Assembly: GCF_900103505.1 (NCBI RefSeq)
Contig: NZ_FNIA01000003.1
Coordinates: 62,001 to 126,000, forward strand
Direction of reading: 5' to 3'
Length of the DNA stretch: 64,000 bases
DNA from: Haloarchaeobius iranensis
Lineage (GTDB): Archaea; Halobacteriota; Halobacteria; Halobacteriales; Natrialbaceae
Shown: positions 4,465 to 37,108 of the stretch, piece by piece
How positions within the stretch are numbered: position 1 is the first letter of the stretch
Layout of the letters: the number at the start of each line of letters is the position of its first letter
Translations under genes and position numbers: made by a program
Notes under the pieces: model-generated
What the model was told of the DNA's origin: nothing
What the model saw: the letters and a program-made list of their open reading frames with translations, nothing else
Database searches by the model: none

Positions 4465-6114
4465 ATGGGTCTGCTGTCGTCAGTGATCGTCGTCTTCGTG
4501 CTGGTCGCCCTCGCCGTCTCGGTGGGCGTCGTCGCCCGGATCGACCGGCCGGATGGTGAGTGGGGGACACGGCTCCGGTCGCGCTGGGTGATGGGCGTGC
4601 CGTGGGGGACGTTCGTCGTCGTCGGGTTCGTGCTCGCGGTCTACCTGTTCGTGCAGGGCGGCTGGGCGCACTGGCGGGACCCGGTTGTCTTGCCGTTCCG
4701 GGCGTGGTCCTATCTCTACCCGACGGGGCTGCTCACGGCGGGGTTCTCCCACGCGAGTCCCGGCCACCTGACGGGCAACCTCACCGGCACGCTCGTGCTG
4801 AGCCCGCTCGCGGAGTACGCCTGGGGGCACTTCCCGCAGGAGCGCGGCTCCGAGTCGTTCGGGTCGTGGCAGAGGAACCCCTGGGTTCGGGCGCTCGTCG
4901 TCTATCCCGCCGCGGTCGTCGCCGTCGGCGTGCTGACGGCCCTGTTCTCCATCGGCGCGGTCATCGGGTTCTCGGGCGTCGTGTTCGCGTTCGCGGGCTT
5001 CGCACTGGTCCGCTACCCCCTGACGACGGTCGTGGCGGTGCTGGGCGGCCAGCGGTTCTTCTCCCTGCTGTACGACGTGCTCCGCGACCCGGTCCTCGTG
5101 CAGGGGGCGTCGCCGAGCCCGCCGTCGCCGCCGTGGTGGGCCGGCATCGCCATCCAGGGTCACGCCTTCGGCCTGTTCGTGGGGTTCCTGCTCGGCGTTG
5201 CCGTGTTCTACCGGCGGACGGACCGACCGAGCGCGCTGCGGCTCTGGCTCGGCGTGCTCCTCTTCGCGGTCGCGAAGAACCTCTGGGCGGTGTACTGGTA
5301 CCTGGGGAACGACGAGTACGTCCTCTACCGGGGCGTCGGGCTTGCCCTGGTCGTCGGGCTCGCGGTGATTGTCGCTCTCGCGCTCGACGTGACCGAGCGG
5401 GACTTCGACGCGTTCACGCTCCGGACCGGCGCGGTGACGGTGCTCGTGGTCGTCGCGGCGGTGATGACCGGGCCAGCGGTGTACAGCAACCTGACCACGG
5501 TGTCCGACTCGTCGGTGCCGGGAGAGGGGGCCGTCGAGGTGGAGGGCTACCACGTGACCTACGCCGAGGACGTCCGCAACGAGCTCATCCCGGTCGTCGA
5601 CGTCGGGCCGCTCTCCCAGCAGACGAACGTGAGCTCCTCGGGCGTCATCGTCGTCAACCAGGACCGGAGCATCTGGTACGAGTCCGTCTCGGCGGGCAGG
5701 TTGGCGTACACGGGCTACACGCGGGTCAGGGTCGGCGGCGTCGGCTGGAACGCGGATGTCGGGGTCAACCGCGACGGCTGGTCGGCGGTCGGCGGCGGGA
5801 CGGCGTACCGGGTGTTCCTCCGGCCGCCGGACGGCGACTGGACGCTCGTCCACGAGAGCGACCCCGTCACGGCCGAGCCGCGGCTGGACGGCAAGAACGT
5901 CTCCATCACCTCGGCCGGGGACAGCCCGTACCAGATCGTGGTGAGTCAGAACGGCTCGGTCGTCGGGCGCGACCCGGTGCCGCGCGCGAACGACTCGGTG
6001 AGCATCGGCGGCATCGAGTTCGTCCGCGAGGAACGCGACGGCGGTGGGGACCGCATCTACGCGGTCGTCGGCGACACGCGAGTCCGCGTGTTCGCGCAGG
6101 AGACCTACCGGTAG
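4465..6114 (+). CDS. Rhomboid-family intramembrane serine protease
   Basis: A 549-residue integral membrane protein. The first ~335 residues contain about eight hydrophobic segments. The rhomboid signature is complete: HASPGHLTGN (oxyanion His/Asn helix, residues ~96-105), the nucleophile in GFSGVVFA (Ser ~170), and the catalytic His in IQGHAFG (~233). After the membrane core the chain continues with ~220 residues of predicted extracytoplasmic beta-rich domain with several N-glycosylation sequons (NLT, NVS, NGS, NDS). Such an exterior tail is not part of the minimal rhomboid fold and may bind substrate or the cell surface. Substrates are unknown. Confidence 0.9.
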   Translation: MGLLSSVIVVFVLVALAVSVGVVARIDRPDGEWGTRLRSRWVMGVPWGTFVVVGFVLAVYLFVQGGWAHWRDPVVLPFRAWSYLYPTGLLTAGFSHASPGHLTGNLTGTLVLSPLAEYAWGHFPQERGSESFGSWQRNPWVRALVVYPAAVVAVGVLTALFSIGAVIGFSGVVFAFAGFALVRYPLTTVVAVLGGQRFFSLLYDVLRDPVLVQGASPSPPSPPWWAGIAIQGHAFGLFVGFLLGVAVFYRRTDRPSALRLWLGVLLFAVAKNLWAVYWYLGNDEYVLYRGVGLALVVGLAVIVALALDVTERDFDAFTLRTGAVTVLVVVAAVMTGPAVYSNLTTVSDSSVPGEGAVEVEGYHVTYAEDVRNELIPVVDVGPLSQQTNVSSSGVIVVNQDRSIWYESVSAGRLAYTGYTRVRVGGVGWNADVGVNRDGWSAVGGGTAYRVFLRPPDGDWTLVHESDPVTAEPRLDGKNVSITSAGDSPYQIVVSQNGSVVGRDPVPRANDSVSIGGIEFVREERDGGGDRIYAVVGDTRVRVFAQETYR

Positions 6115-21980: not shown

Positions 21981-22055
<75 letters not shown>

Positions 22056-27906: not shown

Positions 27907-28434
27907 TCAGAGCAGCGCGCGCAGCAGGCCACCACGCTGGCCCCAGAGCTGGTAGGCCGAGGAGATGGCGAAGGTCGCGAGGAACGCGGAGGCCAAGGCC
28001 AGCGGCGGCATCGCGGCGACGACTGGGACGCTCGCGAGGGCGGCGACCACGAGGAACAGCCCGACAACCCCGAGGGCACGGTAGTACTCGGCCCAGCTGA
28101 CGCCGAAGGCGGCCGTCATGGTCATGTAGCGCTCGACCTCACGAGCGGAGTCGAGGAGCGAGACGAGCTTCCGGTCGGCGTCGTACGCCAGGACCCCGGC
28201 CTCGTCGAGCATTGGCAGGTGGGTCTGGTGGAGCGACACGTACACCGTGTGCCGCACACAGCGTGGGGCCGGGTCCTCCCCCGATTCGACCGTCGCGATG
28301 GCCTCGGCGAGGTCGCGGAGCGCGACGCGCTCGTCGTGGCGTCGCAGATACTCCAGCGTGTGGCGGCGGCGTGTGTTGCTGAGAATGGTAAAAACGTCCG
28401 AATCGGGTACTTCGCGTGTCTTGTTGAGTAACAT
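27907..28434 (-). CDS. DUF7344-type HTH membrane-linked regulator (second copy)
   Basis: A 175-residue paralogue of the protein at 25352-26002. The winged helix (VFTILSNTRRRHTLEYLRRH, then VYVSLHQTHLPMLDEAGVLAYD) covers residues ~12-115, and two membrane helices end the protein. An alternative ATG four codons upstream (28446) exists. It is divergent from the SipW-type locus, with 551 bp between them, and might regulate that locus; this is only context. Confidence 0.83.
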   Translation of the reverse strand: MLLNKTREVPDSDVFTILSNTRRRHTLEYLRRHDERVALRDLAEAIATVESGEDPAPRCVRHTVYVSLHQTHLPMLDEAGVLAYDADRKLVSLLDSAREVERYMTMTAAFGVSWAEYYRALGVVGLFLVVAALASVPVVAAMPPLALASAFLATFAISSAYQLWGQRGGLLRALL

Positions 28435-28985
28435 TGTCCCCCCCATGACGCGCCGAAACGCGTCGTCGAACGTACGGTACACGCGCGGGGGGAATAGGTA
28501 TGGAGAGCGGACAGCGGTGGGGCGGTACGAGCAGGACCGTCCTTCAAGCGTGAATTTTCGGGGAGGTACGCTCGCTCGAACCGGCAGGAACCTCAATCCA
28601 GTACTGAGTCTGCCAGTACGGTCACCGTGTCTGTCTGTGACGAGTTTCTCGCCAAAATCGATAGACTGCGGCACTCTAACGGCTCCAACGACCTCCGCAG
28701 GGGCGTCCTACCAGTTCCGGCAAGCTAGGTGGTAGCAGGACCGGACCGGAAAGCAACGAGTCACTGAGAAGACGAAAGGAGAACATAAGTAATACGATAG
28801 GTGTCGGAGGTGGAGGTAGCCCGTCGAAGGGGGACCGGCACGTCGAGGGCATTCGGGGTGCGACGGGACCGTCGCTCACCGACCCTCGCGTGATGGCGTA
28901 CACAGGCGGGCTCACATCGACTTGGAATGGCACACGGATGGTTCGACTCCGTCACCAGGTCTTCCCCATGGGGGGAGCATATACA
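28435..28985. other. Divergent promoter region of the surface-protein locus
   Basis: A 551-bp non-coding stretch. Left part: promoter of the DUF7344-type gene. A TATA-like CATAAGTAATAC at 28784-28795 could start the rightward transcript near 28820, giving a leader of ~165 nt. In that leader lie a hairpin GCGACG-GGAC-CGTCGC (28860-28875) and the first structured leader element (28919-28978). Confidence 0.55.
28919..28978 (+). ncRNA. tRNA-like structured leader, copy 1
   Basis: The outer stem GACTTGG (28919-28925) pairs with CCAGGTC (28955-28961). The inner T-arm-like hairpin is GATGG-TTCGACT-CCGTC (28937-28953, one G-U pair). A second hairpin, CCCC (28964-28967) with the G run 28970-28975, covers part of the GGAG ribosome-binding site. 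The start codon follows 8 nt later at 28986. Outer-stem bases differ from copies 2-4 by compensatory changes. Confidence 0.7.
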
Positions 28986-30311
28986 ATGACAAACGAAAGA
29001 CAACACCTCTCTCGGCGGACCGTCCTCGCTGGCCTCGGCACCGTCGGTGTCGCAGCTGCGGGCGCGGGTCTCGGTACTACTGCACTCTTCAACGACCGCG
29101 AGGGATTCATCGGCAACTCCCTCGCAGCCGGTTCGCTCGACCTCCTGCTCGACTACAAGGCGACCTACGACGGCCCGAACGGCGTCGAGGTCCTCGGACA
29201 GCAGCCCACCCCGGCGGAAGAACAGGCCTGGGAGGACCAGTTCGGCGGCGAGATAGACTACTGCTCCGAGGATGGCCAGGCACTCCTCATCAACGGCACC
29301 GATATCCCCGTCTTCGGGCTCGACGACGTCAAGCCCGGTGACTCCGGCGAGGTCACCGTCAGCCTCCACATCTGTGACAACCCCGCGTGGGTGACGATGT
29401 CCGGCTCCATGTACGACAACCTGGAGAACGGCCAGACCGAGCCCGAACTCGCCGACGAGGGCGAGGACACCGACGGCGTCGGCGAGCTCGCCGACCACAT
29501 CGAGGTCACCATGTGGTACGACCCGAACTGCAACAACGTCCTCGACGACGGTGAAGTGGTCCTCTTCGAGGGGAGCATGACCGATGCCTTCGCGGCGCTC
29601 GAGGCCGGCATCGGCCTCGACGGCGACGCAAGCACACCCGAGTTCGACCCGGTCCCCGGGGCGAGCACGTACTGCATCGGCTTCTACTGGGAGCTGCCCG
29701 TCGACGTGGGCAACGAGGTCCAGACCGACTCCGTCAGCTTCGACCTGGTCTTCGACGCCGAACAGTCGCGGCACAACCCCGCCGTGACGACCAGCCAGGG
29801 CGAGGGTTTCGAGCCGTTCCAGCAGTCCTCGTTCGCACGGGCTCGCTACGGCGGCACCAACACCTGGGAACTCGCGGTCGGCACCGCACCCGGTAACGCC
29901 GACGAGGCGGACTACACCTGGACCTCCGGTGCGACCGTCCCGTTCGCCTACGAGTACGACGGCGTCGGCTCTGCAACCTTCACTGTCGACAGCGTGACCG
30001 TCGCCGACTCGATTCCGGCACCTGCCGGACGCTTCGCGTTCGTCGGCAAGGCCGACGAGGCGACCGTCACAGTCGAGAACCTCGCGCTCTCCGTCGACGG
30101 CGACCCGATCAGCCTGGTCGGTCCCGGCACGATGACCGCGTCGAACGACGACGACGGCACGGAGCGCGACATCCAGCACCTCGTCGTCAACACGAGCGCG
30201 GCACAGGTCACCCAGCCGTTCACCGTGACCGGCGACCTGACCGGAACGGTACAGGGCGACTACGACACCTCCGCGGAGGAGGGCATCGCCCTCGACCTGG
30301 TCTTCGAGTAG
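28986..30311 (+). CDS. SipW/TasA-type exported protein with extra C-terminal beta domain
   Basis: A 441-residue exported protein. The signal region combines a Tat motif (SRRTVLAGLG, residues ~9-18) with the SipW-type cleavage context (LGTTALFNDREGFIGNSLAAGSLDL). The mature N-terminal domain (to ~residue 260) is a TasA/camelysin-like beta sandwich with the shared landmarks HICDNPAW, WYDPNCNN and VGNEVQTDSVSFDLVFDAEQSRHN. A further ~170-residue Thr/Val/Ala-rich beta domain follows that its two tandem paralogues lack. It has no vWA insert. Its leader carries structured element copy 1. It is probably a cell-surface or filament subunit. Confidence 0.88.
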   Translation: MTNERQHLSRRTVLAGLGTVGVAAAGAGLGTTALFNDREGFIGNSLAAGSLDLLLDYKATYDGPNGVEVLGQQPTPAEEQAWEDQFGGEIDYCSEDGQALLINGTDIPVFGLDDVKPGDSGEVTVSLHICDNPAWVTMSGSMYDNLENGQTEPELADEGEDTDGVGELADHIEVTMWYDPNCNNVLDDGEVVLFEGSMTDAFAALEAGIGLDGDASTPEFDPVPGASTYCIGFYWELPVDVGNEVQTDSVSFDLVFDAEQSRHNPAVTTSQGEGFEPFQQSSFARARYGGTNTWELAVGTAPGNADEADYTWTSGATVPFAYEYDGVGSATFTVDSVTVADSIPAPAGRFAFVGKADEATVTVENLALSVDGDPISLVGPGTMTASNDDDGTERDIQHLVVNTSAAQVTQPFTVTGDLTGTVQGDYDTSAEEGIALDLVFE

Positions 30312-30329
30312 CCGCGCTGCTCGGAGCCT

Positions 30330-30390
30330 GACCCGGATTGGCGCACACGACGGTTCGACTCCGTCGCCGGGTCGTCCCCTAAGGGGGGAG
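30330..30390 (+). ncRNA. tRNA-like structured leader, copy 2
   Basis: The outer stem GACCCGG (30330-30336) pairs with CCGGGTC (30367-30373). The inner hairpin GACGG-TTCGACT-CCGTC is at 30349-30365. CCCC-TAA-GGGG (30376-30386) follows and overlaps the GGGGGGAG purine run that precedes the ATG at 30400. Confidence 0.7.
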
Positions 30391-30399
30391 TACAAACCA

Positions 30400-31887
30400 A
30401 TGACGACCGACAAGCAACACAACATCTCCCGACGGACGGTCCTCGCCGGACTGGGCACCGTCGGCATCGCCGCCGCAGGCGCGGGCCTCGGCACGACCGC
30501 ACTCTTCAGCGACCGCGAAGGCTTCATCGGTAACAGCCTGGGCGCGGGTTCGCTCGACCTGAAGCTCGACTACGAGGCGACCTACCTCGGCGGTGCGGGC
30601 CGGCTCGACGACATCGTCGCCATGGGCTACCCCGACGCCGAGGACCTCGGCGGTGGCCGCTACCTGCTCGACCAGGCACCGCGCCCGGGGGAGGGCCAGG
30701 GCTGGGACGACTACGTGACCGGGGAAGGGTTCGACTTCTGTGCACCCGAGAACGACGAGTTCCTCGTCAACGGCGACGAGATGCCCGTCTTCACGCTCTC
30801 GGACATCAAGCCCGGGGACTGCGGTGAGGTCACCATCAGCTTCCACATCTGTGACAACCCGGCCTGGCTCGACCTCTCCGGGAGCGTCTACGACAACAAC
30901 GAGAACGGCCGGACCGAGCCCGAGAGAGCGGTCGACGAGACCGGTGGGAACCCCGGCTTGGGCATGGGCGAGCTCGCCGACCTCATCGAGGTCTGCGTCT
31001 GGTACGACGAGGACTGCGACAACGTCTACGAGCCCGGCGGCGAGGGCGAAGGACAGGAGCTCGAGGTCGCACTCGTCAGCGACGTCTCCGGCTCGATGAA
31101 CGGGTCGAAGATCGCCGCGCTGCGGAACGCTGCCACCGACTTCGTCGACAACCTCGCACAGCCCGACGAGGTGGCTGCCATCTCGTTCAACTCCGGTTCG
31201 AATCTCGACCAGGCGCTGACGACCAACTACCAGGCCGTCAAGGACGCCATCAACAACTACAGTTCGGGCGGCACGACGAACATGAGCTCCGGCATCATCA
31301 CTGGTGACAACGAGCTGACCAGCGGGGCGAACGCGACGCCGTCGGCGTCGAAGGTCATGATTGTCCTGACCGACGGCGTGGTCAACAGCCCGCCGAGCGC
31401 CGAACAGGCCGCGACCGACGCGAAGAACAACGGTATCCGTATCTTCACCATCGCCCTCGGTGGGGACGCCGACCAGACCTTCCTCGAGAACGACATCGCC
31501 AGCAACCCCGGGGACGCGTTCCTCGCCCCCGACGCTGCCGACCTCGACACCATCTACGAGGAGATCGCACAGATCGTCCTCGAGGGCGAGCAGAAGGTCC
31601 TCTCCGGCACGATGGCCGAGGTGTTCGTCGAGCTCGCAGAGGGTGTCCCGCTCGACGGCGACCGCACCTCCGAGGAGCGCGACCCGTACGCGGCAGTGAC
31701 CACGCAGTGCATCGGCTTCGAGTGGTGCCTGCCCGCCGAGGTGGGCAACGAGGTCCAGACCGACTCCGTCAGCTTCGACCTCGTCGTCGACGCCGAACAG
31801 TCGCGGCACAACGACAACCCCGGTGGTGAGAACAACAGCAGCGACGGTGGCAACAGCACGCCGCCCACGACCACGGCTGCGAACTGA
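30400..31887 (+). CDS. SipW-type exported protein with inserted vWA domain
   Basis: A 495-residue paralogue of the preceding gene, with the same Tat/SipW-type signal (SRRTVLAGLG; GTTALFSDREGFIGNS). The beta-sandwich landmarks are split: between WYDEDCDN (~residue 205) and LSGTMAEVFVELAEG (~400) a complete von Willebrand A domain is inserted. It has a full MIDAS set (DVSGSMNGS; Thr in GGTTNMSSG; LTDGVVNS). The tail is Asn/Ser/Thr-rich with several N-glycosylation sequons. Metal-dependent adhesion to a partner is the likely role. It lies 88 bp after the upstream gene, with leader copy 2 between them. Confidence 0.9.
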   Translation: MTTDKQHNISRRTVLAGLGTVGIAAAGAGLGTTALFSDREGFIGNSLGAGSLDLKLDYEATYLGGAGRLDDIVAMGYPDAEDLGGGRYLLDQAPRPGEGQGWDDYVTGEGFDFCAPENDEFLVNGDEMPVFTLSDIKPGDCGEVTISFHICDNPAWLDLSGSVYDNNENGRTEPERAVDETGGNPGLGMGELADLIEVCVWYDEDCDNVYEPGGEGEGQELEVALVSDVSGSMNGSKIAALRNAATDFVDNLAQPDEVAAISFNSGSNLDQALTTNYQAVKDAINNYSSGGTTNMSSGIITGDNELTSGANATPSASKVMIVLTDGVVNSPPSAEQAATDAKNNGIRIFTIALGGDADQTFLENDIASNPGDAFLAPDAADLDTIYEEIAQIVLEGEQKVLSGTMAEVFVELAEGVPLDGDRTSEERDPYAAVTTQCIGFEWCLPAEVGNEVQTDSVSFDLVVDAEQSRHNDNPGGENNSSDGGNSTPPTTTAAN

Positions 31888-31939
31888 ACCGACCGAAGAC
31901 TGACTGCCTCGACCGTCGTGCCTCGGGGGGCGCGACGGT

Positions 31940-32010
31940 GGCCCACCGGTCACAGGGACCGACGACGACGGTTCGACTCCGTCGGTGGGCCGTTCCCCGA
32001 AAGGGGGGAG
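31940..32010 (+). ncRNA. tRNA-like structured leader, copy 3
   Basis: The outer stem GGCCCACC (31940-31947) pairs with GGTGGGCC (31984-31991), 8 bp of quite different sequence from copies 1, 2 and 4. The inner hairpin GACGG-TTCGACT-CCGTC is at 31967-31983, directly abutting the outer stem as in a tRNA. The linker here is longer and can form GGTC/GACC. The ribosome-site hairpin is CCCC-GAAA-GGGG (31995-32006) with a GNRA tetraloop; the ATG follows at 32022. Confidence 0.7.
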
Positions 32011-32021
32011 TACACAGACAA

Positions 32022-33542
32022 ATGACCGAAAAGAAGACGTACGACATCACCCGGCGGACGGTCCTCGCGGGCCTGGGAACCGCCGGCATCGCGGCGGCCG
32101 GCGCGGGCCTCGGCACGACTGCACTGTTCAACGACCGCGAGGGGTTCGTCGGCAACAGTCTCGCTGCTGGTCGGCTGGACCTCCAGCTCGACTACAAGGC
32201 CACCTACGACGGCCCGAACGGACTCGAGATGATCGGACAGGCACCGACCGAGCAGCAGCTCATCGACCAGGGCCTCGTCGGTATGGCCGAGGGCCCGATG
32301 ACCTGGGAGGAGCGCGCGGACCTCGGGTTCGCCTGTGACACCGAGGGGTTCATCGACGGCGACGCGATGCCGGTCTTCGAGCTCGACGACGTCAAGCCCG
32401 GGGACTGCGGTGAGGTGACCGTCAGTCTCCACATCTGTGACAACCCCGCCTACCTCTGGATGCGCGGGAGCGTCTACGACGACCTCGACAACGGACTCAC
32501 CGAGCCCGAGGGCGAGGTCGACGACACGCCCGACGTGGGCGAGCTCGCCGAGAACATCGACGTCACCCTCTGGTACGACGAGGACTGCTCGAACACCATC
32601 ACCGAGGGCGTCGGCACGAGCGACATCCTCGTCGTGCAGGACGTCTCCGGCTCGATGGAGTACGACCAGTACGGCGGTGAGATCTCCGACGGCCAGGGTG
32701 GCACGACCACGAAGCTCGCCGTCGCCAAGGACGCGATGGGCGACTTCGCCACCATCGTCTTCGACGAGACCGCCGACACCGAAGTCGGCGTGTTCACCTT
32801 CGGCAACGAGGACTACATCGGCGACGCACAGGCACCGGGCATCGCGTTCGGGCCCTCGGGGACCGAGGCCGACGTGCAGAACGCAATCGGGAACATCCAG
32901 GCGGTCCCGCAGGGCGTGACCGGTACGGCCCTCGGGCTCGCGGTGCAGGAGGGCGACGACTACCTCAGCGCGAACGCCCGCACCGGTGCACAGAAGATCA
33001 TGATCCTGCTCACCGACGGCGAGCAGTTCGCGAGCAGCGTCGACGAGCTCCAGGCCGCCAACGACGCCAAGGCCGGCGGCACCCGCATCATCGTCATCGA
33101 CATCAACGACCCGGGCGACGGCGAGCCGCAGCTGCTTCGGGACATGGCCGGGACGACGGTCAACAACCCCGGTGACGGCGACGGGACCGACTACTACAAC
33201 ACGTCGGCGGACGACCTCGCAGTCGTCCTTCCCGTCATCTATCAGTCGATCATCGAGTCCGTCGTCGTCGGCGAGGTGGTGTTCTTCGAGGGCACCCTGG
33301 CCGAGTTGAACGACGCGGCGTCGGGCGGCCTCAAGCTGGAGGCGCTCCCGCTGCTGGCCCAGGCCAGCGACGGGGACGAGTACTGCTTCCTGCCGGGCAC
33401 CCACTGCGTCGCGATGGAGTGGTGCATCCCGCGCGAGGTGGGCAACGAGATACAGACCGACTCCGTGACGTTCGACCTGGAGTTCGCCGCCATCCAGTGC
33501 CGGCACAACGGCGAGAACGCCAACCCGTTCGGGGCCGCCTGA
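32022..33542 (+). CDS. SipW-type exported protein with inserted vWA domain (second)
   Basis: A 506-residue paralogue. The Tat motif here is TRRTVLAGLG, and GTTALFNDREGFVGNS marks the SipW-type cleavage region. The vWA domain is inserted at the same place, between WYDEDCSN and VVFFEGTLAELND, with MIDAS residues in DVSGSMEYD, GVTGTALG and LTDGEQF. The C-terminus keeps VGNEIQTDSVTFDLEF. The two vWA inserts are clearly diverged from each other, so the duplication is not recent. Leader copy 3 lies directly upstream, with a strong purine-rich ribosome site. Confidence 0.9.
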   Translation: MTEKKTYDITRRTVLAGLGTAGIAAAGAGLGTTALFNDREGFVGNSLAAGRLDLQLDYKATYDGPNGLEMIGQAPTEQQLIDQGLVGMAEGPMTWEERADLGFACDTEGFIDGDAMPVFELDDVKPGDCGEVTVSLHICDNPAYLWMRGSVYDDLDNGLTEPEGEVDDTPDVGELAENIDVTLWYDEDCSNTITEGVGTSDILVVQDVSGSMEYDQYGGEISDGQGGTTTKLAVAKDAMGDFATIVFDETADTEVGVFTFGNEDYIGDAQAPGIAFGPSGTEADVQNAIGNIQAVPQGVTGTALGLAVQEGDDYLSANARTGAQKIMILLTDGEQFASSVDELQAANDAKAGGTRIIVIDINDPGDGEPQLLRDMAGTTVNNPGDGDGTDYYNTSADDLAVVLPVIYQSIIESVVVGEVVFFEGTLAELNDAASGGLKLEALPLLAQASDGDEYCFLPGTHCVAMEWCIPREVGNEIQTDSVTFDLEFAAIQCRHNGENANPFGAA

Positions 33543-33957
33543 GCGGGCACCGACCGGCTCGTTCGAGCCGAAGCTCCATCCCATAGCGAGACGACGGCCG
33601 GGGCCGTCGCCGCCCACGCCGACCCGGACGGGTACACGACGGTTCGACTCCGTCACCGGGTCCTCCCCGCGGACGGGGATACCACTCGATGCGCCGACAG
33701 ACGATGCCGCCAACCGGGCGTCGCCGACGTCGCTTCGGGCGAACGGTTCCAGGGTCGCCGTACCGGACGGCAGGGTCGGCCGACCGCTCTCCGAGCGGCC
33801 GGTAGTGGTCCACGTCCGGCTGGCGAGCGACCCATACCTAAACCCGTTGCTGTCCTTTCGACAGGCGAGAAACGACGACGAGGACTGCCGACCGGGGGTC
33901 GGACGAACGGGTCACGTCGTCGAGTCCGACACGCCGCCTGGGGGCGGCAGGGGGGAA
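33543..33957. other. Intergenic region with orphan leader
   Basis: A 415-bp gap. It holds structured leader copy 4, followed by a 38-codon Arg-rich frame (33689-33805) that does not resemble the SipW-type proteins. A further hairpin GCCGCC-TGGG-GGCGGC (33932-33947) comes just before the GGGGGG ribosome site of the next gene. The region looks like the remains of a deleted cassette. Confidence 0.5.
33621..33679 (+). ncRNA. tRNA-like structured leader, copy 4 (orphan)
   Basis: The outer stem GACCCGG (33621-33627) pairs with CCGGGTC (33656-33662). The inner hairpin GACGG-TTCGACT-CCGTC is at 33638-33654. A third hairpin TCCCC/GGGGA (33664-33668 with 33675-33679) has a six-base loop. Stems are kept, although no SipW-type gene follows the ATG at 33689. 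Confidence 0.65.
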
Positions 33958-34701
33958 ATGGTGACATCTACACAGAAACAACTGAATCGACGCGACCTTC
34001 TCGCTGGCCTCGGTGCCGGCGCGGTCGGGCTCGCCGCACTCTCGGGAGGGACCGGCGGGTTCGGCTCCAGCCCGGCGTACACGCACTACGCGTACGCAGC
34101 ACCGAACTCGCTGGTCAGAGTCGCATGGTTCGAGACGTACAACGGTGACGTTCTCGAGGGACAGAACGGGTCGACGGTGACGAACGGAAGCACCGTCCTC
34201 GACCCGGACGAATCGCCGGCGTACGTCGACGACGTGCCGGGGCCCGTGGTGACGCTCGACAACCTGCTCCCGGGCGACGAGGGGACCCTCGTCGTCGGGT
34301 TCGAGGCAGTGGACACGCCGGCGGAGGTCCGTCTCCGTCCGCAGCTCACCGGGACCGCGGAGAACGGTATCGTCGAGCCGGAGGCCGCCGCCGGTGACAC
34401 GACGTCGACCGCCGGCGAGTTACAGGACGCGCTGCTGGTCGAGTGCTGGCGCGACTCCGGCCTGCTCGGCGGCTGTGACGGCCGCCGCGGACTCGGTGAC
34501 ACCACCATCACCACGGGCACGCTCCAGAGCGTGAGCGACGAGTACGGCGCCGACGGCATCGCCGTGGGCTGTCTCGACGGTGGCGAGAACCGCTGTCTCG
34601 GGTTCACCTGGCGGTTCGACCCGTCGAGCACCGACACCCAGACCGACAGCGTCACGTTCGACCTCGTCTGCGAGGCGACCAGCTGTGGAGGGGCACAATG
34701 A
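33958..34701 (+). CDS. Tat-exported beta-rich protein of the SipW-type locus
   Basis: A 247-residue protein. The signal LNRRDLLAGLGAGAVGLAALSGG is a good Tat signal but lacks the SipW-type FNDRE context. The mature part has weak similarity to the neighbours (landmarks DNLLPGDEGTLVVGF and TDTQTDSVTFDLVCEA). Paired cysteines occur in the second half (GGCDG, VGCLDGGENRCLG). The start at 33958 follows a purine run. The stop overlaps the next ATG (ATGA), so it is coupled to it. Confidence 0.83.
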   Translation: MVTSTQKQLNRRDLLAGLGAGAVGLAALSGGTGGFGSSPAYTHYAYAAPNSLVRVAWFETYNGDVLEGQNGSTVTNGSTVLDPDESPAYVDDVPGPVVTLDNLLPGDEGTLVVGFEAVDTPAEVRLRPQLTGTAENGIVEPEAAAGDTTSTAGELQDALLVECWRDSGLLGGCDGRRGLGDTTITTGTLQSVSDEYGADGIAVGCLDGGENRCLGFTWRFDPSSTDTQTDSVTFDLVCEATSCGGAQ

Positions 34702-35867
34702 GCGGCCTCACGCGGCGCGAGATCCTCGTCGGTGCGTCCGTCATCGGCGGTGCCGGCGCGCTCTCGACGGCGAGCACGTACGGCGCACTGGTCGACCTGG
34801 AACGGTTCACCGGGAACTCGCTGCAGGCCGGCCTGCTCGACCTGCTCGTCGAGTGGGACCACGACGGCGAGACCGGAGCCAGCGACGGACAGGTGTCCAT
34901 CGACCTCGGGACCCTCTCGCCCGGCGAACAGGGATTCGTCGAGTTCACCGTGGACCTCCCCGAGTCCAGCGAGGGCATCAACAACCCCGCCTACACCTGG
35001 CTGCGCACGTTCTGCCCGTCCACGACCGGCCGGCTCGCGGGCGCGCTCGGCATCAGCCTCCGGTACGTCGACGAGACCGGCGCGTACGCGAGTGACACCC
35101 TCTTCGAGGGCACGCTCTGCGACGTCGCCCGCACGTACCAGACCGGGCTCCCGCTGGACCCGGCCCAGGACCCGAACGCGACCGTCCCCGGCTGCCTGAA
35201 CGCCGCCGAGGACGGACCGCTCCACCTGCGACTCGACTACGAACTCGCCGCCGATTACGTCGGCGAGGAGACGGTCGGCCTCGGCTTCGAGTTCGCGGCG
35301 GTCGCCTGCCGGCACGCGGACCCGACCGGGGCGGGCCCGTTCTCGCGCGCCGCCCGCGTCGACTGCTACTGCGGCCCCGACAGACACGGCGTCAGCTACG
35401 TCGAGGTGTACGTCTGCGAGGCCGGTGCACCCGGCTGCGACTGCGTCCTGCTCGGGAAGCTCGAACTCGACGACAAGCTCCCCGCTGACTGCGGCATCGG
35501 CACGCCCGCGACGCTCGGCGAGAACTACGTCGAGCCGGGTCGCTACACCCTCCCGGTCGACGACGACTGCGAGGGCTCCGGCTACGACATCGTCGTCACC
35601 GAGACGGCCAGCAGGCCCGCCGAGGACGACGGCCGCGACGAAGTCGTCGCGCTCGCCTTCCGCGTGGAGGGCGACGGCGACACGCCGGCTCCGACGCTCT
35701 GCCAGGTCGCCATCAAGGGCGGCCGGGGCGTCGCTTACTACGGCCCCGAGGACCTCGATGGGAACGGCACCGACGGTGTCCTCGGCGCGCCCGAGAACGA
35801 CGACGGCACCTCGACTGGTGGCTCGACGGACGACGGCACCCCCGGCAGCGGAGGTGGTCGCCGATGA
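34698..35867 (+). CDS. SipW-type exported, Cys-rich protein
   Basis: A 389-residue protein. The signal TRREILVGASVIGGAGALSTAS again begins with RR, and ERFTGNSLQAGLLDLLVEW matches the post-cleavage SipW-type context. The first ~210 residues follow the TasA-like pattern (NNPAYTWLRTFC; FEFAAVACRHADPTG). Then comes a ~130-residue Cys-rich domain (VDCYCGPDRHG, GAPGCDCVLLGK). The tail is Gly/Asp/Thr-rich. Overlapping ATGA junctions on both sides place it between the previous gene and the signal peptidase. Confidence 0.85.
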   Translation: MSGLTRREILVGASVIGGAGALSTASTYGALVDLERFTGNSLQAGLLDLLVEWDHDGETGASDGQVSIDLGTLSPGEQGFVEFTVDLPESSEGINNPAYTWLRTFCPSTTGRLAGALGISLRYVDETGAYASDTLFEGTLCDVARTYQTGLPLDPAQDPNATVPGCLNAAEDGPLHLRLDYELAADYVGEETVGLGFEFAAVACRHADPTGAGPFSRAARVDCYCGPDRHGVSYVEVYVCEAGAPGCDCVLLGKLELDDKLPADCGIGTPATLGENYVEPGRYTLPVDDDCEGSGYDIVVTETASRPAEDDGRDEVVALAFRVEGDGDTPAPTLCQVAIKGGRGVAYYGPEDLDGNGTDGVLGAPENDDGTSTGGSTDDGTPGSGGGRR

Positions 35868-37108
35868 GCCCCGAATCGACCCGTGGAACCGCTCTCCGGG
35901 CGGTCGGTGTCCTGCTCGTGCTGGCGCTGGTCGTCCCGTTCGTCGTCTTCGCCGTCCCGCAGGTCGTCGGCGCCGACGCGAGCTTCGTGGTCATCTCCGG
36001 TAGCATGGAGCCCGCGATCTCCGTCGGTGACGCGGTCGTCGTCGCGGCGGTCGACGGCGACGAGGTCCGCGTCGGCGACGTCATCACCTACGTCACGGCC
36101 GACCGCGCGGCCCCGACGACCCACCGTGTCATCGAGATACAGCAGACCGCCGCCGGCCCCGAGTTCGTCACACAGGGTGACAACAACGAGGACCCCGACG
36201 CGAGCACCGTCACGCCCGACCGGCTGGTCGGCCGCGTGCTACTCACCATCCCGTTCATCGGGTACGTCGTCGAGTTCGTCGGCACGACGACCGGCTTCGC
36301 GCTGCTCGTCGCGACGCCCATCGCGTTGCTCGTCGTCACCGAACTGTGGTCGCTGTACAGGCGCCGCACCGGGAACGACGAGGCCGAGAGTGTCGCCAGC
36401 GGCGCTGCGAGCGACGGCACCGCGAGCGCGGCAGCCGTCGCCACCGACGACGAGCAACCCGCCGGCTGGAGCATCGGCGTCCGCGACCTGACCGTCACGA
36501 TGGCGGTCGTCGGCGTCGCGGCCGTCTACTCCGGCGTGGTGGCCTACCTCGTCTACGACGGCTCGGTCACCTACCTGCGGCTGCTCCAGCTGAGCGTCGC
36601 GGCGTTCGCGGCCTTCGCCGTCGGGTTCCTGGTGCTGCTCGGGATGCGGGTGTTCGTCAGCCCGTCGAGCGACACGGCGGCTGCCGGCGGCACCCTTCGC
36701 GGGTCGCTCGACGAGACGACCCGCTCGCTCCCCACGGTCACCGTGGCCAGCGTGGCCGAGCTCCGGGGCATGGCCACCGCGGCCGAGCGCTGGCTCGTCC
36801 ACGACGAGGAGCACGACCGGCTCAGCTACTCGGACGGCACCATGCTGTACGTCTGCGAGGTGCCCGACGACGGCGAGGACCCGGCTATCGCGACGGCCGA
36901 CGAGCCCGTCACCGGGGAACTGACCGCCACCGACGACTCGGTGCTCGACGACGACGCCACCGGCGGGCCGGTCGTCGACGACGCCGTCGCCACCGAGGAG
37001 GCCGCCTGGGCGGCCCTGTTCGGTGATGCGTTCGAGCACGAGAACGGGGAGTTCACCTTCCCGACGCGCGACGCGCGACCCGACGGAGGTGAGGACGGTG
37101 AGCAGTAG
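35864..37108 (+). CDS. SipW/Sec11-type signal peptidase I with extended membrane tail
   Basis: A 414-residue signal peptidase. The catalytic Ser is in ISGSMEP (Ser ~47), and His is in TTHRVIEI (His ~87), as in the archaeal/ER Ser-His type. A following Asp is in TQGDNNEDPD (~106-110). Membrane helices lie at ~10-35 and ~130-160. Unusually, ~250 more residues follow, with two or three further helices (~200-265) and an acidic tail. It is embedded among SipW-type substrates with overlapping starts, so it is the natural enzyme for their processing. Confidence 0.9.
   Translation: MSPESTRGTALRAVGVLLVLALVVPFVVFAVPQVVGADASFVVISGSMEPAISVGDAVVVAAVDGDEVRVGDVITYVTADRAAPTTHRVIEIQQTAAGPEFVTQGDNNEDPDASTVTPDRLVGRVLLTIPFIGYVVEFVGTTTGFALLVATPIALLVVTELWSLYRRRTGNDEAESVASGAASDGTASAAAVATDDEQPAGWSIGVRDLTVTMAVVGVAAVYSGVVAYLVYDGSVTYLRLLQLSVAAFAAFAVGFLVLLGMRVFVSPSSDTAAAGGTLRGSLDETTRSLPTVTVASVAELRGMATAAERWLVHDEEHDRLSYSDGTMLYVCEVPDDGEDPAIATADEPVTGELTATDDSVLDDDATGGPVVDDAVATEEAAWAALFGDAFEHENGEFTFPTRDARPDGGEDGEQ

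Follow-up and report, generated by a model that had tools for sequence, protein, structure and literature searches.

In mitochondria, transfer RNAs (tRNAs) lying between genes mark the cuts made by RNase P and RNase Z and so give separate messenger RNAs (mRNAs), an arrangement known as tRNA punctuation. To our knowledge, little has been established about what directs the processing of mRNA in archaea, where processing sites have been studied genome-wide in Halobacterium salinarum, among others. A 2012 study by Holzle et al. in Biochimie reportedly sought tRNA-like processing elements in the genome of Haloferax volcanii. The SipW/TasA operon of Bacillus is tapA-sipW-tasA, and we know of no such RNA elements in operons of this kind, where none were sought here. 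In H. volcanii, tRNase Z processes a tRNA-like element (t-element) directly upstream of 5S ribosomal RNA (rRNA), and a foreign RNA flanked by t-elements on both sides is released in vivo (PMC4326828, PMC7714728, PMC11602121, which cite Holzle et al. 2008); other haloarchaea have this 5S t-element too. Here we describe four elements of related shape in 64,000 nt of Haloarchaeobius iranensis DNA (NZ_FNIA01000003.1, positions 62,001-126,000, forward strand, assembly GCF_900103505.1; hereafter the window), where they accompany a cluster of genes for secreted proteins of the SipW type. The t-element as such is already known; a clade-wide mRNA family tied to one operon class is new. The literature compared, outside which the 2012 H. 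volcanii survey falls, holds no clade-wide family, no attachment to SipW operons, no linker GG, no post-cut hairpin and no rule for operon joints. Some members may have been seen earlier in H. volcanii.

Each window copy is built from a 7-bp outer stem around a linker (10-20 nt) and a 5-bp T-stem, with a single base between the T-stem and the outer 3' strand. The original prediction had described four such copies with the loop TTCGACT and a G-U pair in one, all of which is confirmed on the sequence (the loop in 4/4 copies, the G-U pair in the T-stem of copy 1, GATGG/CCGTC). The elements share a T-arm and an acceptor-like stem with canonical tRNA (RF00005) and differ from it in their length of 40-50 nt, their one-base spacer and the missing cloverleaf, the window copies having no set of D and anticodon arms. 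On the window, ARAGORN and Rfam called the tRNA-Glu gene at 21981 and none of the four copies, and the 4227 covariance models of Rfam gave no match to them at the gathering score and none that was sensible at a relaxed E-value. The elements are neither tRNAs nor members of an Rfam family. A strict T-arm scan of the window found the four copies and the tRNA-Glu gene only, with none on the minus strand, and the exact string GGTTCGACTCCGTC occurs five times in the 3.77-Mb genome, always on one strand (reversed control, 0). The fold energies of the copies are weak (z-scores of -0.5 to -2.0), and in copies 1 and 4 the T-arm is rearranged in the fold of lowest energy. Since fold energy alone is unpersuasive, the case rests on comparison with homologues, and the z-scores were not taken as evidence.

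Two further copies, each preceding a SipW-type gene, lie in a second SipW cluster of the same genome (C39, the window being part of C49), one of them with an extra 6-bp hairpin in its linker. A covariance model, R1, was built from the six copies of this genome. Full-copy MAFFT alignments misplaced the outer 5' strand because linker lengths differ; in the R1 seed the linkers of c3, c5 and c6 were shortened, and all searches were made on natural sequence. On the whole genome, R1 gave six strong matches (E 9e-13 to 1e-7) and a weak one on C62; five of the six directly precede SipW-type genes, and the sixth is copy 4. A simpler query, the string GGTTCGACTCC, was rejected: of its 15 genome matches, those other than the six leaders and the weak C62 candidate look like chance and have no outer stem. 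The original prediction had proposed a covariance-model search of haloarchaeal genomes, and with the six-copy model this search (E<=0.001) matched 109 of 292 sampled genomes and 41 of the 77 genera of the class, 5S matches included. All R1 matches listed from a phylum-wide sample belong to one order. When the best locus of each genome is taken (55 loci), 34 are immediately upstream of a SipW-type gene and 5-6 upstream of 5S rRNA; the remainder include other secreted-protein genes and homologues of copy 4.

The outer stem and T-stem are maintained by compensatory change. In 118 distinct homologous copies aligned to R1 (alignment A5), 93.1% of cells are paired (T-arm 99.5%, outer stem 89%), covariation is strong in all three helices, and changes on both sides occur in 14/16 pairs. 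The number of cells changed on both sides, 162, compares with 37.2 +/- 4.8 after shuffling, and slid structures fall from 93% pairing to 46-60% (52-60% when one strand is slid by one base). As A5 had been fitted to R1, it was complemented by two tests that need no alignment. The outer 3' strand finds a better partner in its own upstream region (14.1) than when 3' strands are permuted among loci (12.3 +/- 0.23). The first variable outer pair (pair 6) is complementary in 37/64 cases vs 23.9 +/- 3.1, a strong signal; that of pair 7 is weak (30 vs 25.1 +/- 2.7). The claim that outer-stem pairing is kept while the bases change thus holds in the alignment and in the permutation test alike, and homologous leaders without outer-stem covariation, which would have spoken against it, were not what we found, as each of the 7 outer pairs is changed on both sides in some homologue.

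The homologues also sharpen the anatomy. The consensus reads CCCAC-N-YGG-N(3-5)-C-[GRCGG TTCGACT CCGYC]-G-GTGGG-NN, predicted cut, TTCCCC-N4-GGGG-N(8-10)-ATG. The outer stem had been put at 7-8 bp with a spacer of 0-1 base: the stem is real, and it resolves into a 5-bp core (CCCAC/GTGGG type) and two variable outer pairs, with a spacer that is nearly always one base, usually G (85/105), opposite a C before the T-stem (86/105). Linkers are short (<=20 nt) in 47 cases and long, often with an extra arm, in 53. The linker GG noted at the outset is kept within the first 7 bases of 46/47 short linkers (25.7 in shuffles) and within the first 8 bases of 46/53 long ones; by analogy with G18G19 of tRNA it may act against the T-loop, as the D-loop does. 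To the anatomy first described, which otherwise stands, must be added this optional linker arm and a conserved hairpin behind the predicted cut, present in 102/105 homologues vs 36 in shuffles and starting 0-1 nt past the cut in 91. In all four copies of the window it begins 0-1 nt past the outer stem, and in copies 1-3 the start codon lies 8-12 nt beyond it.

A variant T-arm, GGCGG TTCGCGA CCGCC within a CCCGG.../CCGGGAG stem, was observed at one SipW joint in Halorubrum and relatives (L061, L062, L063, L074, L076, L078, L081, L083, L086, L087, L103, L106 and L111); its loop departs from the TTCRANY consensus and the architecture is kept.

R1, built from SipW leaders alone, also detects the 23S-5S element, which the 5S rRNA follows directly. 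In H. iranensis itself, both 5S genes coincide with sub-threshold R1 matches (C47:192526 and C58:3219, 17.3 bits). The 5S leader reads CCGAT...GG...CAACGG TTCGATT CCGTTG GTCGGCG, then TTAAGG, and 5S starts 8 nt past the T-stem, a register identical to that of the cuts predicted in the window. A position 13 nt past the T-loop fits the 5S start by model position, and in the mRNAs it fits the start of the hairpin and the distance to AUG. The kinship with Haloferax t-elements that had been proposed, and the four predicted cut positions (Table 1), agree with this shared register. Both kinds of element have an acceptor-like stem, a linker with GG, a T-arm with a TTCGAYT loop and one spacer base, and both are found by one covariance model; mature 5S starts 8 nt past the T-stem, the place at which the processed SipW mRNAs are predicted to start. 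They differ in that SipW elements precede mRNAs, occur several times per genome and have a CCCC/GGGG hairpin and then a start codon behind them; in the acceptor core, which is CCCAC/GTGGG or CCCGG/CCGGG in SipW elements and CCGAT/ATCGG in the 5S t-element; and in the loop, mostly TTCGACT in the former and TTCGATT in the latter. The genome encodes a tRNase Z (C53, 342 bits, above the curated cut-off). At one locus of another genome (L051, G114:C6:1-540), two tandem 5S rRNA genes stand behind 23S, each with its own t-element.

The strongest independent test of placement came from 72 named loci (784 kb) picked by protein and not by RNA. The gene strand of these loci has 124 strict T-arms and the opposite strand 2, one of the two being an ordinary tRNA. 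A T-arm is present for 106 of 238 SipW-type open reading frames (ORFs; called by signal-peptide pattern, so that a few may be wrong), and its end lies 26-34 nt upstream of the start codon in 86 of these 106. Counting as internal those genes with another SipW-type gene ending <=500 nt upstream, genes with an element comprise 99 internal and 7 first genes, and genes without one 39 internal and 92 first genes (odds ratio 33, Fisher p 2e-25). The elements therefore mark the places where genes of a SipW operon meet, and the front of the operon usually has none. Among the 39 internal genes that lack one, 17-18 have a gap of less than ~80 nt, which leaves no room, and the rest mostly have either an arm that narrowly fails the strict pattern or the loop variant TTCGCGA. 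The proposed location between the genes of a polycistronic message is thus borne out by position for the family at large, and it does not apply strictly to copies 1 and 4; likewise, placement directly before SipW-type genes holds for copies 1-3 and fails for copy 4, from which the next cluster gene starts ~280 nt further on.

This distribution bears on the main rival explanation, namely that the tRNA-like fold and the Shine-Dalgarno (SD) hairpin form an intact cis-regulatory leader, a translational switch that binds a T-loop- or elbow-binding protein or a ligand and works without cleavage. The hairpin lends it some substance, as its SD-like 3' arm lies 8-12 nt before AUG and it is as well conserved as the T-arm. 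Element-less first genes have a stem of their own that ends just before an SD-like sequence, so that all SipW genes could share control at the start codon. This stem of first genes, a different one, falls in the 55 nt upstream of the start codon, with a mean best stem of 18.2 vs 13.8 +/- 0.5 in shuffled sequence. The two classes were not told apart by a lax threshold for hairpins upstream of start codons, owing to the high G+C; a stricter threshold did better. However, first genes are the usual site of regulatory leaders, and riboswitch-like placement, mainly at the front of the transcription unit, is not what is seen, 92 of the 99 first genes having no element and 99 of the 106 elements being internal. 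Register and sequence are, moreover, common to the 5S t-element, which regulates no translation, and SD 4-mers occur in 44% of element-bearing genes vs 60% of first genes. The switch explains the SD-like hairpin and neither the preference for internal joints nor the 5S register, and we consider it unlikely, while keeping it as the main rival.

The first-gene stems (L059-L130) are mostly long, for example CCGATTCGG...CGAGTCGG and CTGAGCG...CGCTCAG, and their 3' arm abuts the SD-like sequence. All SipW mRNAs may carry a structured 5' end beside the SD, which first genes would have from the transcription start and internal genes would acquire through a cut at the t-element.

We regard it as probable that the family consists of intercistronic t-elements that are cut by tRNase Z, splitting SipW operon transcripts and leaving hairpin 5' ends. 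Every anatomical feature of a t-element that could be tested is present, and the structure, its conservation and covariation, the position at SipW joints, the register, the following hairpin, the model shared with 5S and the tRNase Z gene are all observed; from the sequence we infer the cleavage, its enzyme and its effect on stability and translation. The elements would act as minimal tRNA mimics, with an acceptor-like stem, a T-arm whose loop is TTCGAYT, and a linker that holds a D-loop-like GG and sometimes an extra arm. On the polycistronic message of a SipW-substrate operon, tRNase Z would recognize the stack of T-arm and acceptor stem together with the elbow and cut 13 nt past the T-loop (8 nt past the T-stem), as upstream of 5S rRNA; on the 5' side of the element, a cut by RNase P is possible. 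Each downstream gene would then be left with a separate mRNA that opens with a short hairpin, SD-like in its 3' arm, and whose AUG is 20-25 nt from the new end. Such processing could make the individual SipW-exported proteins independent of one another in stability and output, and could protect the newly formed 5' end against 5'-3' exonuclease.

Several observations weigh against this proposal. Copy 1 stands before a first gene, as do seven other elements; copy 4 has no conserved gene directly behind it, and some sister species lack the ATG there. Pairing is imperfect in the outermost pairs, with A-C and other mismatches, and the second outermost pair is unpaired in 33/99 sequences. The one-base spacer and the missing cloverleaf set the copies apart from tRNA, and a hairpin near the 5' end that holds an SD-like sequence could just as well control translation without cleavage.

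Copy 4 is also the best argument for a different role, in which t-elements mainly form the 3' end of the upstream gene, or stop read-through from it, by means of RNase P or tRNase Z, so that the 5' end made downstream would be a by-product. It stands behind gene 3 with no conserved gene immediately downstream and its flank is kept in four species; several elements elsewhere end SipW clusters with no start codon behind them. For copy 4 a 3'-end role is possible. As a general account it is improbable: the tight distance from T-arm to AUG and the fixed place of the hairpin indicate that the downstream side is under selection, and copy 1 has no gene upstream. That the elements are tRNA gene remnants, integration attachment sites or a mobile repeat spread by gene duplication can be dismissed as highly improbable, for although SipW genes are duplicated paralogues and the T-loop has the consensus found in tRNA 3' halves, the two strands of the stems change together, and do so across families; the start codon sets a fixed position and strand for the elements; and linkers and outer stems differ between neighbouring copies. 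The integration-site and tRNA-pseudogene readings in particular were rejected on the fixed sense orientation and the covariation.

If cleavage by tRNase Z does occur, the family would be to the cell what tRNA punctuation is to mitochondria, except that SipW elements release no functional tRNA and are minimal mimics found mostly in one operon class. We lean, by a little, towards calling it tRNA punctuation without tRNAs: mimics related to the 5S t-element from which tRNase Z would generate single-gene mRNAs, tying surface-protein expression to the tRNA-processing machinery. This would add a post-transcriptional layer to the SipW/TasA-like surface proteins of haloarchaea. The family provides a candidate structural signal for processing, for which cut sites can be predicted exactly in dozens of genomes, with tRNase Z as the candidate enzyme and 5S as a positive control, and its members could serve as ready operon-splitting parts in archaeal genetics.

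Table 1. Elements, predicted cuts, hairpins and genes of the SipW cluster (window coordinates)
Feature	Position	Strand	Details
t-element copy 1	28919..28961	+	sequence, strict T-arm scan; R1 70.3 bits, E 9e-12
copy 1 parts	outer 5' strand 28919-28925; GG linker 28926-28936; T-arm 28937-28953; spacer 28954; outer 3' strand 28955-28961
t-element copy 2	30330..30373	+	strict T-arm scan; R1 74.8 bits, E 9e-13
copy 2 parts	outer 30330-30336 / 30367-30373; T-arm 30349-30365
t-element copy 3	31940..31991	+	strict T-arm scan, fold; R1 51.7 bits, E 1e-7
copy 3 parts	outer 31940-31946 / 31985-31991; T-arm 31967-31983		linker holds small extra hairpin
t-element copy 4	33621..33662	+	strict T-arm scan; R1 72 bits, E 4e-12
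copy 4 parts	outer 33621-33627 / 33656-33662; T-arm 33638-33654
predicted tRNase Z cuts	after 28961, 30373, 31991, 33662	+	register of 5S t-element
hairpin after predicted copy 1 cut	28962..28977	+	TTCCCC-ATGG-GGGGAG, SD-like 3' arm; fold; start codon 28986
hairpin after predicted copy 2 cut	30375..30389	+	CCCC/GGGG, SD-like; fold; start codon 30400
hairpin after predicted copy 3 cut	31993..32010	+	CCCC/GGGG, SD-like; fold; start codon 32022
hairpin after predicted copy 4 cut	33664..33679	+	fold; kept in four species bar one loop base
SipW-type secreted protein gene 1	28986..30311	+	choice-of-anchor W domain NF041928; cognate_SipW signal TIGR04088 at C49:91037
SipW-type secreted protein gene 2	30400..31887	+	vWA domain PF00092, 3e-23; TIGR04088
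SipW-type secreted protein gene 3	32022..33542	+	vWA domain PF00092, 8e-12; TIGR04088
next cluster gene	33958..34701	+	ORF; SipW-like N-terminus by eye; no t-element directly before
archaeal signal peptidase I, SipW kind	35864..37108	+	TIGR02228 2e-32; NF046067 2e-25, below cut-off

The cluster fits the SipW assignment. Genes 1-3 score above the cut-off for the SipW-cognate signal peptide, and haloarchaeal plasmids carry homologues whose annotation reads 'SipW-dependent-type signal peptide-containing protein'. As in Bacillus tapA-sipW-tasA, the SipW-type substrates are encoded beside a SipW-like signal peptidase. Copy 1 is placed upstream of the first gene of the cluster, and copy 2 begins 18 nt past the stop codon of gene 1. 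Profile searches gave no family match for the next cluster gene. Copy 4 and its hairpin are kept in three sister species, and the ~280 nt behind it (33663-33957; L030, L031, L032) are ~87% conserved in four Haloarchaeobius species, the ATG and frame not being so; this segment may contain an internal promoter (ATACCTAA) for the next cluster gene or be the remnant of a lost gene.

Elsewhere, t-element-like matches stand before other genes, some of them for secreted proteins, such as MKRRTYLTTLGAITAGG... (L033, L041, L044, L057, L148, L154, L155), so the family is not restricted to SipW operons and 5S rRNA. At L018 (G000:C62:26825-26882, minus strand) and L038 (G056), a conserved t-element lies ~50-60 nt before a gene of ~480 codons (VRSTTKLLLTGLATITLALALLQGTGA...) that is outside the usual SipW-substrate pattern. 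At L047 (G105:C7:20274-20336 onward), a second tRNA-shaped minimal element, CCGTCGG TAGAC GTGGG TGCGAGT CCCAC CCGACGG, directly follows the t-element before a glycosyltransferase-like gene, giving two tRNA mimics in tandem. ARAGORN calls tRNA-Gly and tRNA-Arg over the t-elements of L030 and L040, and t-elements may therefore be mis-annotated as tRNAs in some genomes. Finally, next to the window cluster lies a divergent gene (27907-28434, minus strand) whose short product (MLLNKTREVPDSDVFTILSNTRRRHTLEYL...) is winged-helix-like and has hydrophobic segments at its C-terminus; genes resembling it stand beside the C39 SipW cluster (L002:4416-4985 and 5306-5836, minus strand), which makes them candidate regulators of these operons.

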